Assembly (NCBI GenBank): GCA_900544445.1
Contig: UQVK01000090.1
Coordinates: forward strand, 1-15,962
DNA from: an uncultured Lachnospiraceae bacterium
GTDB taxonomy: Bacteria; Bacillota; Clostridia; Lachnospirales; Lachnospiraceae
Length of the DNA: 15,962 bases
Direction: 5' to 3'
Below are positions 11,517 through 15,962 of the stretch, piece by piece; the stretch's first letter is position 1; the number at the start of each line of letters is the position of its first letter. The notes beneath the pieces are model-generated. The model did no database searches and was not told the origin of the DNA. It worked only from the letters and a program-made list of their open reading frames with translations. Made by a program: the position numbers and the translations under genes.

Positions 11517-11528
11517 CGTTACCTCCTT

Positions 11529-11659
11529 GCCGAAGCGTTTTACGCTGAGGCCGCGAGGAGAAATCACGCAGGTGATTTCTCCTCTACGATCACAGCAGTT
11601 TTGTGCTTCAGCGCAAAACTGCCGATTGAAAAATAAGTCATCAGGCTTATTTTTCAATC
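11529..11659. repeat. Array of four consecutive hairpins between hypD and hypE
   Basis: Four adjacent inverted repeats. H1: GATTGAAAAATAAG (11624-11637) with CTTATTTTTCAATC (11646-11659), 14 bp. H2: GCAGTTTTGTGC (11595-11606) with GCGCAAAACTGC (11611-11622), 12 bp with one wobble. H3: GAGGAGAAATCAC (11555-11567) with GTGATTTCTCCTC (11572-11584), 13 bp. H4: AGCGT (11534-11538) with ACGCT (11542-11546), extended by GCC/GGC at 11529-11531 and 11549-11551, immediately before the hypE ribosome binding site. Loops are 3-8 nt. No coding function; the array lies inside the predicted hypCDE transcript. Confidence 0.85.
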
Positions 11660-11687
11660 TCACCATCCTTTCCCATTTTTTCCTGCC

Positions 11688-12830
11688 CTACCATCCCCCG
11701 GACTGCCAGCAGGAAAAGCAGCTTCCTTCCGTGGAAACCATGCAGGCGCCCTGGGGCGTCTGGGGCGTGCATACCCTGCCGAACAGCGGGCATTCCTGCG
11801 GCCGGATCCTTCCCATCAATACCTGCGCACAGCAACAGGCGGGATTTCCTCTCGCATCCTCCATCAGTTCCGCGCTTCCCGCATCGAAGGCTTCATATTC
11901 CTTCCTCAGCTTCCTTCCGGAACCCGCGATCACGCCGATCCCCCGCCAGGCTGCGTCACAGGGCTCGAAAAAGCGGTCCACCCGCTCCCGCGCCTCCGTA
12001 TTCCCTTCTTCCGTTACCGCCGAAGGATACATATTCAGCACCCGTCCCTGCCCCTGAAGCTTCACCAGGGCGGCGATGGCAGCCAGGATTTCCTTTCCTT
12101 CAAAGCCCGCCACCACAAAGGGGAGGCCATACTTTCGCGCCAGAGGCTCGAAGATACGGCTGCCTGTGATTACGCTCACATGTCCAGGGGCGAGAAAGCC
12201 GTGAATCCTTTGGGATTCACGGTTTTCTCGAAATATCTGCTCCCTGGCGGGAGCAGATATTTCCCCGGCGGGCTGTATCCGAATAGATTCCTGTATTTCC
12301 CCAGTGGTGTAAACATCGGCAGAATTATGGGCGCAGATCCAGTCGATTGCAGGGGGCATCACCTTCAAAGAGGTGAGAAGGCGCAGATTCTTAACGCCCT
12401 GCTCCAGCGCTTCCTGCACCAGAAGGGCATAAACAGGCGTTGTGGTCTCAAAGCCCACCGCCGCAAAAATGTATCCATGATCCGGGTCCGCTTTTGCAAG
12501 CCTCAGCGCGTCCATAGGGGAATAGACCATCCGCACGCTGCATCCCTGAGCGCGCGCCTCACCCAGGCTGATAGCGCTTCCGGGGACGCGGAGCATATCG
12601 CCGAAGGTCACGATGCAGTTCTTCGGATCCATTCCCAACTCGATCAGACGGTCAATATAAGCGCTCACCGTCACGCAGACCGGGCAGCCGGGACCGGACA
12701 CCAGCTCAATGGAGGGCGGCAGCAGGGCGGGAATCCCGTTTCTGTGAATTTCCGCCGTGTGGGTGCCGCACACCTCCATGAAGCGGAGCGGCTTTCCGTC
12801 ATAGCTTTGGAGATACTCAAGGATTTTCAT
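11688..12830 (-). CDS. hypD: Hydrogenase maturation protein HypD with in-frame insertion
   Basis: HypD is the [4Fe-4S] scaffold that, with HypC, assembles Fe(CN)2CO for [NiFe] hydrogenase. The 380-residue product keeps the family signatures: MEVCGTHT (18-25), SGPGCPVC (45-52, Cys49/Cys52), FGDMLRVPGS (77-86), AVGFETTTP (124-132), APGHVSVITG (214-223), and the C-terminal cysteine region from QEC through FGRVCTP and GACMVSTEGSC (about 346-371). About 36 residues at 173-208, rich in Glu, Arg and Gln, have no place in the family pattern, where PPAIDWIC is soon followed by GFxxPGHVS; removing them gives about 344 residues, a normal length. That segment is encoded by two hairpins. ATG at 12830 with GGAGGT; it overlaps hypC by 14 nt. 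Whether the protein is still functional is open. Confidence 0.95.
   Translation of the reverse strand: MKILEYLQSYDGKPLRFMEVCGTHTAEIHRNGIPALLPPSIELVSGPGCPVCVTVSAYIDRLIELGMDPKNCIVTFGDMLRVPGSAISLGEARAQGCSVRMVYSPMDALRLAKADPDHGYIFAAVGFETTTPVYALLVQEALEQGVKNLRLLTSLKVMPPAIDWICAHNSADVYTTGEIQESIRIQPAGEISAPAREQIFRENRESQRIHGFLAPGHVSVITGSRIFEPLARKYGLPFVVAGFEGKEILAAIAALVKLQGQGRVLNMYPSAVTEEGNTEARERVDRFFEPCDAAWRGIGVIAGSGRKLRKEYEAFDAGSAELMEDARGNPACCCAQVLMGRIRPQECPLFGRVCTPQTPQGACMVSTEGSCFSCWQSGGW
12191..12263. repeat. Two abutting hairpins inside hypD
   Basis: Hairpin A: CGAGAAAGCCGTGAATCC (12191-12208), TTTG loop, right arm 12213-12230, matching at 17 of 18 positions with the odd one a wobble. Hairpin B: GAAATATCTGCTCCC (12230-12244), TGGC loop, GGGAGCAGATATTTC (12249-12263), a perfect 15-bp stem. 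They share base 12230. Together they encode most of the extra HypD segment. The 12191-12208 arm encodes I209-L213 of HypD (IHGFL), just ahead of the conserved APGHVS. Confidence 0.9.
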
Positions 12831-13047
12831 CCGCCATGACCTCCTCCAGCTCGTCAAACAGCTCCTGCATCCGGTCTCCCTCTTCTTCGGAAAGCACCTG
12901 CAGAATACAGCCCGCATGCACCAGCACCCGGTCTCCGGGCTTCACCTTCACCAGTCCCGCCTCCGCTGTCACCTGATTTCCCTGAAAATCCACCACAGCC
13001 TTATTTTCCTTTATCGACAACACCCTTCCGGGCAAAGCAACACACAT
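12817..13047 (-). CDS. hypC: Hydrogenase maturation chaperone HypC
   Basis: Small chaperone (76 residues) that carries the Fe(CN)2CO unit with HypD and delivers it to the hydrogenase large subunit. It begins MCVALPGRVL; Cys2, exposed after Met removal, is the essential ligand, which fixes the start at 13047 rather than at the in-frame GTG 21 nt upstream. The HypC/HupF signature PGDRVLVHAG is at 37-46, and the acidic C-terminal helix EEEGDRMQELFDEL follows. The ribosome binding site (GGAAAAG) is weak. Its 3' end overlaps hypD by 14 nt. A TATAAT promoter lies about 140 nt upstream. Confidence 0.97.
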   Translation of the reverse strand: MCVALPGRVLSIKENKAVVDFQGNQVTAEAGLVKVKPGDRVLVHAGCILQVLSEEEGDRMQELFDELEEVMADENP

Positions 13048-13120
13048 ACTTTTCCATTGACCGCACACCGTACGGGCAGCCGCCCGTCGGACAGTCTTTC
13101 CTTTCTTCAGCCTCCGACAT
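13001..13120 (-). CDS. Possible 39-residue Cys-rich leader peptide overlapping hypC start
   Basis: Open frame of 39 codons starting at ATG 13120 and running 47 nt into hypC in another frame. It begins MSEAEERKDCPTGGCPYGVR and carries CPTGGCP and a later CC pair. It lies entirely inside the hypC leader. There is no good ribosome binding site (only AGAAGAG about 11 nt upstream). Supporting a role: hypC itself has a weak ribosome binding site and could be translationally coupled. Against: short, overlapping, and unsupported by any homolog I know. Confidence 0.2.
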   Translation of the reverse strand: MSEAEERKDCPTGGCPYGVRSMEKYVCCFARKGVVDKGK

Positions 13121-15198: not shown

Positions 15199-15962
15199 TC
15201 AATCCTGCAGGGCGATCCAGGCCTGTCCCAGACAGATGCCTCCGTCGTTGCCCGGCACCTGCTCATTGACATACACCGAAAAACCGTCCGCCTCCAGCAG
15301 CGCCCTGCAGCGTTCCTGCAGCAGTACATTGGCGAACACGCCGCCGCTTAAGGCAATCTGGCGGATTCCCGTTCTCTCCCGCAGCCGCCTGCACATGGCA
15401 AGCACCATCCGGGCCAGCGCCTCATGGAAGGCCAGAGCGAGCGCCTGCGCCCGCTCTGGCTTTATTCCGCATTCTCCTTCTTCAGAAAGCTCCCGAAGCA
15501 GCGCTTCCAGAAGCGTCCTGCGGTCCGCAATCAGCCTCTTTCCTTCTTCCCGTATCGGGAAGGGAAGTTCCAAGGGAAGTTCCCTTCCCCGGCCCCCGTT
15601 CTCCGGCCTCTCTTCCCGCCGTTTTCTTTCCTTCCAGGCCGCATTTTCCAGCGCAATGGCGCATTCCCCTTCATAGCTGTTAAACTCCCGGATGCCAAGC
15701 AGAGCGCTCACCGCGTCAAAAAGCCGTCCCATACTGGAGCTTTGCTGTACGTTGATCCCGAGCTTCAGCGCTTTTCTGACCATCTCCACCTTGGAAGCGA
15801 CCGTTCTGGAAAAGGAAGCGTCTTTCCCTTCCGAAAGGAAGGCGAGATGGCAGGCGGCTGTCAGGGACGCATCTTTGGAGGAAGCATCCCCGCCCGTCAG
15901 CGGTATCTCCTCCAGATGGCCGCAGCGTTGAAAGGAAGCCCCTTCACAGACCAGAAATTCCC
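15199..15962 (-). CDS. hypF: Carbamoyltransferase HypF, C-terminal part (5' end beyond window)
   Basis: HypF converts carbamoyl phosphate to carbamoyl-AMP and passes the carbamoyl group to the C-terminal cysteine of HypE. The visible 254 codons are the end of the Kae1-like transferase domain: CGHLEEIPLTGGDASSKDA near the window edge, QSSSMGRLFDAVSALLGI with EFNSYEGECAIALE, FHEALARMVL, LSGGVFANVLLQERC, and the nucleotide-binding VPGNDGGICLGQAWIA before the stop. The frame stays open through base 15960, so the acylphosphatase, zinc-finger and YrdC-like domains must lie outside. A Glu/Arg/Pro-rich linker in the middle is encoded by short repeats (15557-15589). It belongs functionally with hypCDE but is separated from them by two opposite-strand lipid genes. 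Confidence 0.96.
   Translation of the reverse strand, partial: EFLVCEGASFQRCGHLEEIPLTGGDASSKDASLTAACHLAFLSEGKDASFSRTVASKVEMVRKALKLGINVQQSSSMGRLFDAVSALLGIREFNSYEGECAIALENAAWKERKRREERPENGGRGRELPLELPFPIREEGKRLIADRRTLLEALLRELSEEGECGIKPERAQALALAFHEALARMVLAMCRRLRERTGIRQIALSGGVFANVLLQERCRALLEADGFSVYVNEQVPGNDGGICLGQAWIALQD
15557..15589. repeat. Short inverted and direct repeats inside hypF
   Basis: GGGAAGGGAA (15557-15566) and TTCCCTTCCC (15580-15589) form a 10-bp inverted repeat, and GGGAAGTTCC occurs twice (15562-15571 and 15574-15583). They encode part of the low-complexity linker of HypF (ELPLELPFPI). Confidence 0.6.

Follow-up and report, generated by a model that had tools for sequence, protein, structure and literature searches.

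How a gene for a conserved hydrogenase maturase comes to hold, within an open reading frame, two abutting hairpins with nearly perfect stems, and what keeps their arms paired, are the questions that this locus raises. The DNA analysed here is a stretch of 15,962 nucleotides (the window), which resembles genomes of Eisenbergiella from a chicken-gut clade, the nearest being G001, with 47% of sampled 31-letter words in common.

The double hairpin and its host gene

The host gene, hypD, encodes a product that matches the NCBIfam equivalog TIGR00075 at 361 bits (cut-off 192.8), and the listed open reading frame that extends to 12917 consists of hypD together with an upstream read-on into hypC. The features on which the argument rests are as follows.

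10530 to about 11516: hypE, with AIRS domains, flanking hypD on one side
11688–12830, minus strand: hypD coding sequence, 380 amino acids, stop codon included in the span; TIGR00075 match, PDB relatives 2z1d and 3vyr
12817–13068: hypC (PF01455), flanking hypD on the other side
15199–15789: C-terminal domain of HypF (PF22521)
12201–12332, minus strand: variable loop of HypD, codons 167–210, between WIC and GFLAPGHV, delimited from the loop lengths of relatives and from low pLDDT
12191–12230, minus strand: hairpin 2, with 5' arm 12230–12213, loop 12212–12209 and native 3' arm 12208–12191, which encodes IHGFL
12230–12263, minus strand: hairpin 1 (A type), with 5' arm 12263–12249, loop 12248–12245 and 3' arm 12244–12230
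12264–12266, minus strand: GGG of a possible closing helix (three-way junction), pairing in the predicted fold with CCC within 12187–12190
12187–12190, minus strand: CCCC partner of that helix, of which the predicted fold uses 12188–12190
12267–12302, minus strand: decayed hairpin unit (B type), resembling the intact hairpin 1 of G001, with a fold of its own of only -4.8 kcal/mol

The arms of hairpin 2 (12191–12208 and 12213–12230) are 18 nt long and complementary at 17 of 18 positions (94%), those of hairpin 1 (12230–12244 and 12249–12263) are 15 nt long and 100% complementary, both loops measure 4 nt, and base 12230 is common to the two hairpins. The 81-nt stretch that contains them folds with a z of -10.0 as RNA (minus strand) and of -11.1 as DNA (plus strand); in neither case did any of 200 shuffles do as well. 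Among 1000 codon shuffles of hypD the longest stem was 14, and 15 was reached in 0; the hairpins in the window lie far beyond chance expectation. The possible GGG/CCC closing helix, for which the covariation counts took 12187–12189 as the partner instead of the 12188–12190 of the predicted fold, is weakly kept among relatives, with 78.6% of cells paired over 3 pairs, or 72.7% without G001.

Loop length was counted as the residues after WIC minus the three that precede GF, which gives 41 for the window, 6 for E. tayi (P0033, whose loop is that of genome G002) and 55 for merdavium, the two extremes within Eisenbergiella. Among the closest 31 protein clusters (P0001–P0031), the stretch after WIC has at least 29 residues in 27, the exceptions being P0026 (17), P0027 (16), P0030 (20) and P0031 (10). 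Of P0032–P0120, 57 of 89 proteins could be parsed, 32 falling outside the pattern; in the parsed set the loop has 3–6 residues in 50 (exactly 4 in 43) and 10–22 in five, and P0036 and P0040, with loops of 41 and 46, are clade-type sequences fused to other protein parts. A tandem repeat in P0030 sits at the same place as the hairpin insert. P0026 and P0022 differ at 3 of 336 residues outside the loop yet by 24 in loop length (a comparison of proteins only), so the loop site varies among close relatives.

The earlier note on this DNA had described two abutting hairpins, with arms of 18 and 15 nt and 4-nt loops, in an intact hypD, and had read them as an in-frame insertion of about 36 extra residues. 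The coordinates and the TIGR00075 match agree with that description, the in-frame insert is supported, and its size is right, since the loop exceeds those of relatives with 4–6 residues by 35–37. An ordinary family variant, with the same 36 residues conserved in relatives without hairpins, was the case that would have told against the insertion; what was found instead is a set of inserts that vary in both length and sequence. Modelling of the fold, which the note had also proposed, shows the insert as a loop of low confidence within a HypD fold that is otherwise predicted with confidence: the predicted structure has a mean pLDDT of 88, the solved structures nearest to it in fold are HypD chains (3vyr and 2z1d, for example), and runs with pLDDT < 50 are confined to residues 171–192 and 194–204. 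The model thus suggests a flexible or poorly ordered loop, of which low pLDDT is to be expected, a prediction that cannot prove the insert harmless.

Strong intragenic hairpins on both sides of which conserved protein resumes could also point to programmed bypass, in which the ribosome would skip the hairpins and the insert would never appear in the protein. No stop codon was found inside the 27 HypD matches listed, the inserts of different length are open and in frame as translated DNA would be, and a take-off stop codon is lacking, all of which makes bypass highly improbable. As a separate observation on this stretch, 28 of the 31 closest clusters have His just before GFLAPGH (codon 210 in the window); Asp stands there in P0028, the intestinipullorum type without hairpins, as well as in 71 of the 89 other listed proteins.

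Distribution, copies and serial units

Both hairpins are present in five distinct sequences, namely the window, G001 (whose insert is also that of L030), Candidatus E. stercorigallinarum, stercoravium and merdavium. Hairpin 2 alone is found in merdipullorum (G008, which encodes exactly P0027, the protein carrying that name), and intestinipullorum has a long loop with no stem above 7. In a survey of 58 loci and the window (of 80 loci, 21 fell outside the filter and the truncated L076 was left out; merdipullorum was not part of it), stems of at least 10 occur in 6 of 59 HypD genes, that is, the window and the five named records, all of the same Eisenbergiella clade. The hairpins are not universal among relatives that have hypD, as those of a functional RNA element would be. 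Because most of these relatives are metagenome-assembled genomes, an inverted chimera arising in assembly or amplification deserves mention, but the G001-type insert is identical in L029 and L030, assemblies that bear separate names, and the window and stercorigallinarum types are found in the representatives of two protein clusters (P0001, 268 members; P0018, 117 members), so that an artefact is the least probable of all the explanations considered.

A tree of hypD without the loop groups the window with G001 (100/100) and does not resolve the order of four of the other species. The window and stercorigallinarum diverge by 10.6% in the rest of hypD and show zero differences in the arms of hairpin 1, which fits either constraint or exchange. 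Along hypD, divergence ranges from 0 to 7 per 90 bases between the window and G001 and from 5 to 16 between the window and stercorigallinarum, for which the minimum (5–6) lies just past the insert and at one other place; a short exchange between these two lineages (mosaic recombination) may have occurred.

No copy of the hairpin sequence outside hypD was found at E < 0.01 by model R1 in 13 genus genomes, with 150 of 943–2045 candidates scored per genome and the window's own assembly not among the 13. Matches at E < 1e-14 were obtained in four of these genomes, all at hypD, and G008 gave a weaker hypD match (E 0.0018); a DNA search of the 13 genomes had a best match outside hypD of E 0.045. The remaining R1 matches (E 0.017 to 0.9; G001:C12, G005:C48, G012:C60, G006:C28 and G011:C33:222897) are to different hairpins: at four of these five loci two hairpins abut, with a stem sequence unrelated to that of hypD; the open stretches around them look spurious, some with short GCCGCC-rich repeats alongside.

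These searches bear on the idea that a mobile element resembling the palindromic ones of Rickettsia entered the gene in frame and was then inherited or passed between strains. Such an element would agree with an in-frame palindromic insert in a metabolic gene, with the near-identity of the insert in the window and stercorigallinarum, and with the presence in the genus of a dispersed triple-hairpin repeat and of other abutting hairpins with unrelated stems. Because neither search found another copy in the 13 genus genomes, because hairpin 2 has native sequence of the gene as its 3' arm, and because a BLAST comparison between the insert and the triple-hairpin copy in the window gave no match at E 1 or below, we consider it very unlikely. 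The nucleotide search among relatives that the earlier note had suggested led, in these 13 genomes, to hypD only, and its comparison with Rickettsia palindromic elements is not supported. Its other proposal, an inverted copy of native gene sequence, fares better: the RIHGFL-coding 3' arm of hairpin 2 belongs to the native gene, and its 5' counterpart behaves like an inverted copy of it. Overall, its in-frame insert, its native and inverted arms and, in the predicted model, its loop are supported, whereas a dispersed element is not. The GFLAPGHV-coding stretch is present in the short-loop genomes G002, G004 and G013, so the source arm pre-existed, a conclusion that holds for hairpin 2 only.

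Hairpin 1 appears to belong to a series. The decayed unit of the window (12267–12302) aligns locally with the intact hairpin 1 of G001 (score 35, z 8.5, 0 of 300 shuffles), and the decayed unit of G001 aligns with the intact hairpin 1 of the window (score 36, z 9.6, 0 of 300), so that these two sisters hold opposite units intact. In stercorigallinarum, an A-like stretch lies upstream of the intact A unit (score 27, 0 of 300 shuffles), together with a second upstream stretch of weaker likeness to B (scores 20 and 22; 2 of 300 each). A simple history inferred from these likenesses would start from an ancestral series A-B-A-hairpin 2, with later losses. The intact hairpin 1 directly adjoins hairpin 2 in all five double-hairpin sequences, a regularity that position-specific selection would also produce. 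By eye, the 5' arm of the B unit resembles the short native loop of E. tayi. The earlier note held neither the decayed unit and the possible closing helix, nor the serial units and the genus-wide range of loop lengths, nor the tendency of the arms to co-vary between species.

Mirrored changes and what may keep the arms paired

Covariation commonly counts as strong evidence that an RNA structure is under selection. Across the five double hairpins, 94.8% of 174 cells are paired compared with 86.2% in shuffles (0 of 500 as high), and 11 of 35 pairs have changed on both sides, with a score of 0.354 versus 0.160 (each 0 of 500). Since G001 has a unit of another type as its hairpin 1, so that its differences there are not substitutions, the covariation was recounted without G001. 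Paired cells then amount to 95.0% versus 90.2% (3 of 500), double-sided changes to 8 of 35 pairs versus 3.2 in shuffles (2 of 500), and the score to 0.257 versus 0.147 (2 of 500). For hairpin 2 alone, in six rows including merdipullorum, 95.1% of cells are paired versus 90.3% (1 of 500), 4 of 17 pairs have changed on both sides (11 of 500), and the score is 0.275 versus 0.174 (1 of 500). The count of pair types is not above shuffles, either without G001 (161 of 500) or for hairpin 2 alone (196 of 500), and with slid partners as a control at most 57% of cells pair in all three covariation counts. These figures come from five double hairpins and one single one, few and related; the cells count sequences and not events, and the shuffles ignore relatedness.

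The double-sided changes in hairpin 1 (without G001) rest on one sequence, merdavium, in five of six pairs; in a pairwise comparison with the window, each arm has 5 changes, all of them mirrored (5/5), with no loop inversion. All six sequences encode RIHGFL in the 3' arm of hairpin 2 and differ there only silently, and the 5' arm of the five double-hairpin sequences encodes FRENRES, FRGIHGP, FRESRES, FRGNRES and FRGNRES. With silent changes on one side and amino-acid changes on the other, it is the pairing that has been kept and not the peptide that the 5' arm encodes. Over the five pairs of stems, the cells without a Watson-Crick pair comprise 3 G.T, 5 A.C and 1 A.G; with merdipullorum included, hairpin 2 shows 6 wobble and 5 non-standard cells. 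The numbers are small, and wobbles show no clear surplus over other mismatches in these stems; hairpin 2 of merdipullorum contains three wobble pairs. Judged from the aligned sequences, changes in the stems thus tend to be mirrored on both arms, a signal that template switching and selection for pairing both predict.

Template switching has been proposed to create and to mend stems in single events, its part in keeping stems being less clear (PMC8794818), and the homogenisation of inverted-repeat arms by template switching has been proposed for yeast coding genes (PMC8604942). We lean, with slightly better than even confidence, towards template switching during replication as the origin of the double hairpin, which would be a local by-product in a loop of HypD that tolerates it. 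In an ancestor of the Eisenbergiella clade, the polymerase would have copied the native RIHGFL-coding stretch in inverted form just upstream, giving hairpin 2, next to which at least two more units (A and B) would have arisen. Mismatches in the stems would occasionally have been overwritten by new switches that copied one arm from the other, leaving arms that are complementary and yet drift, and units no longer adjoining hairpin 2 would have decayed. Selection would meanwhile keep the frame open, the insert being translated into a loop with little order. Template switching accounts for the inverted native copy, the mirrored changes, the decay of some units and the absence in relatives.

Selection on the fold itself would explain the same covariation, the compensatory substitutions following from it, and accounts better for a unit that is intact only beside hairpin 2. 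Here an mRNA or single-stranded DNA three-way junction would act within hypD, for example by making ribosomes slow down between one half of HypD and the other. The very stable fold and covarying stems, the decay of upstream units alone, the silent 3'-arm changes matched by amino-acid-changing ones in the 5' arm, and the wobble pairs of merdipullorum all agree with such selection; relatives with one hairpin or none, the poorly kept closing helix, the lack of a clear wobble surplus and the 0 matches to Rfam at gathering threshold in the window argue against it, and we judge it somewhat unlikely. We lean to switching because some relatives do without the double hairpin and no clear wobble surplus is seen (in small numbers), and are held back by the wobble pairs of merdipullorum and by the lack of any loop inversion among the compared hairpins. 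Inversion with compensation is regarded as the strongest support for switching in PMC8794818, where it is rare as well. The recount without G001 lowered our confidence in switching a little and made fold selection a little less doubtful than before.

The two processes may both be at work. In one combined form, which we regard as unlikely, the hypD loop would be a self-renewing, selected double-hairpin device, in which selection keeps a nucleic-acid three-way junction in its position beside hairpin 2 and template switching supplies ready-made compensations; if so, this loop of a hydrogenase maturase would be a fast-evolving segment of variable length.

Known systems and other hairpins of the genus

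The hairpins of microRNA and rRNA genes discussed by Monttinen and Loytynoja (2022; PMC8794818) have perfect stems ascribed to single steps and multi-base compensations ascribed to copying from arm to arm, as the hairpins of hypD would have on the switching reading, whereas hypD is a bacterial protein gene with several units in series, in which hairpin 2 has one arm with silent changes only and another in which residues change. Yeast inverted repeats (PMC8604942) share, on the same reading, the homogenisation of arms in protein-coding DNA and the clustered amino-acid changes, but are described there as existing short repeats in one yeast species, compared with gained hairpins of 15–18 bp and a lengthened loop in several bacterial species. 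The mitochondrial palindromes of Nematomorpha (PMC6649704) are likewise perfect inverted repeats in protein-coding genes; they are numerous, reach 284 bp and encode conserved protein in both arms, whereas hypD has conserved protein in one arm of one hairpin only, at a single locus. Rickettsia palindromic elements (PMC10969869) are also in-frame palindromic inserts in metabolic genes whose protein is kept, but they are outlined as multi-copy families of about 150 bp in unrelated genes, and no other copy of the hypD insert was found.

In titles and abstract openings of the open-licence literature, no description of coding hairpins in Eisenbergiella hypD was found. The type of mechanism is already described, and what is new is a double hairpin built in series within the coding sequence of a bacterial gene. 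That the hypD stems covary across species even though some relatives do without them calls for caution in covariation-based RNA discovery. Codon degeneracy, which separates the silent from the amino-acid-changing arm of hairpin 2, offers a natural test of whether switching alone can keep stems paired, and the locus points to a way in which an enzyme that is otherwise conserved can gain a loop of some 30–50 residues step by step.

Stems of at least 14 inside long open reading frames number 10 in 796,038 bases of the three small-clade genomes G001, G009 and G011, compared with an expectation of 0.33 from codon shuffles; six are in hypD (in all three genomes), two in a dispersed repeat whose open reading frame was judged spurious, and two others in G011. 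In 400,000 bases of G013, 3 such hairpins were counted against an expectation of 0.33. The hypD gene stands out for coding hairpins, yet others exist in open reading frames of the genus. One, at G013:C1 4176749–4176796 (within L193), has a 20-bp stem and an 8-nt loop in an open reading frame of 243 residues. The HypF-like open reading frame of the window contains a hairpin with a 15-bp stem and 3-nt loop at 15557–15589, in coding sequence and by eye not present in the aligned stretch of G009, and another with a 13-bp stem and 4-nt loop at 15431–15460.

Abutting double hairpins with unrelated stems were also seen at L122:1501-1560, L114:1501-1562, L116:1501-1559 and L124:1501-1575, several beside GCCGCC-rich palindromes, and these are perhaps further intergenic repeat families. 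The spacer between hypD and hypE (11517–11665 in the window) carries three successive hairpins of a dispersed repeat of about 125–135 bp. An origin of the hypD insert from this repeat was rejected, as the sequences differ: R1 scores the spacer repeat at 19.5 bits, and BLAST of the insert against 20 loci around other copies returned only 18 bases (E 0.19). The triple-hairpin repeat has matches in 10 of the 13 genus genomes, 3 to 70 per genome including pieces, and none was found in G002, G004 and G013. Among 22 aligned copies, most start with a stretch resembling TTGAAAAATAAG, and GGAGG, a Shine-Dalgarno-like motif, flanks many on one or both sides, as if the repeat were placed at ribosome-binding sites; in L142, three copies follow one another in tandem.
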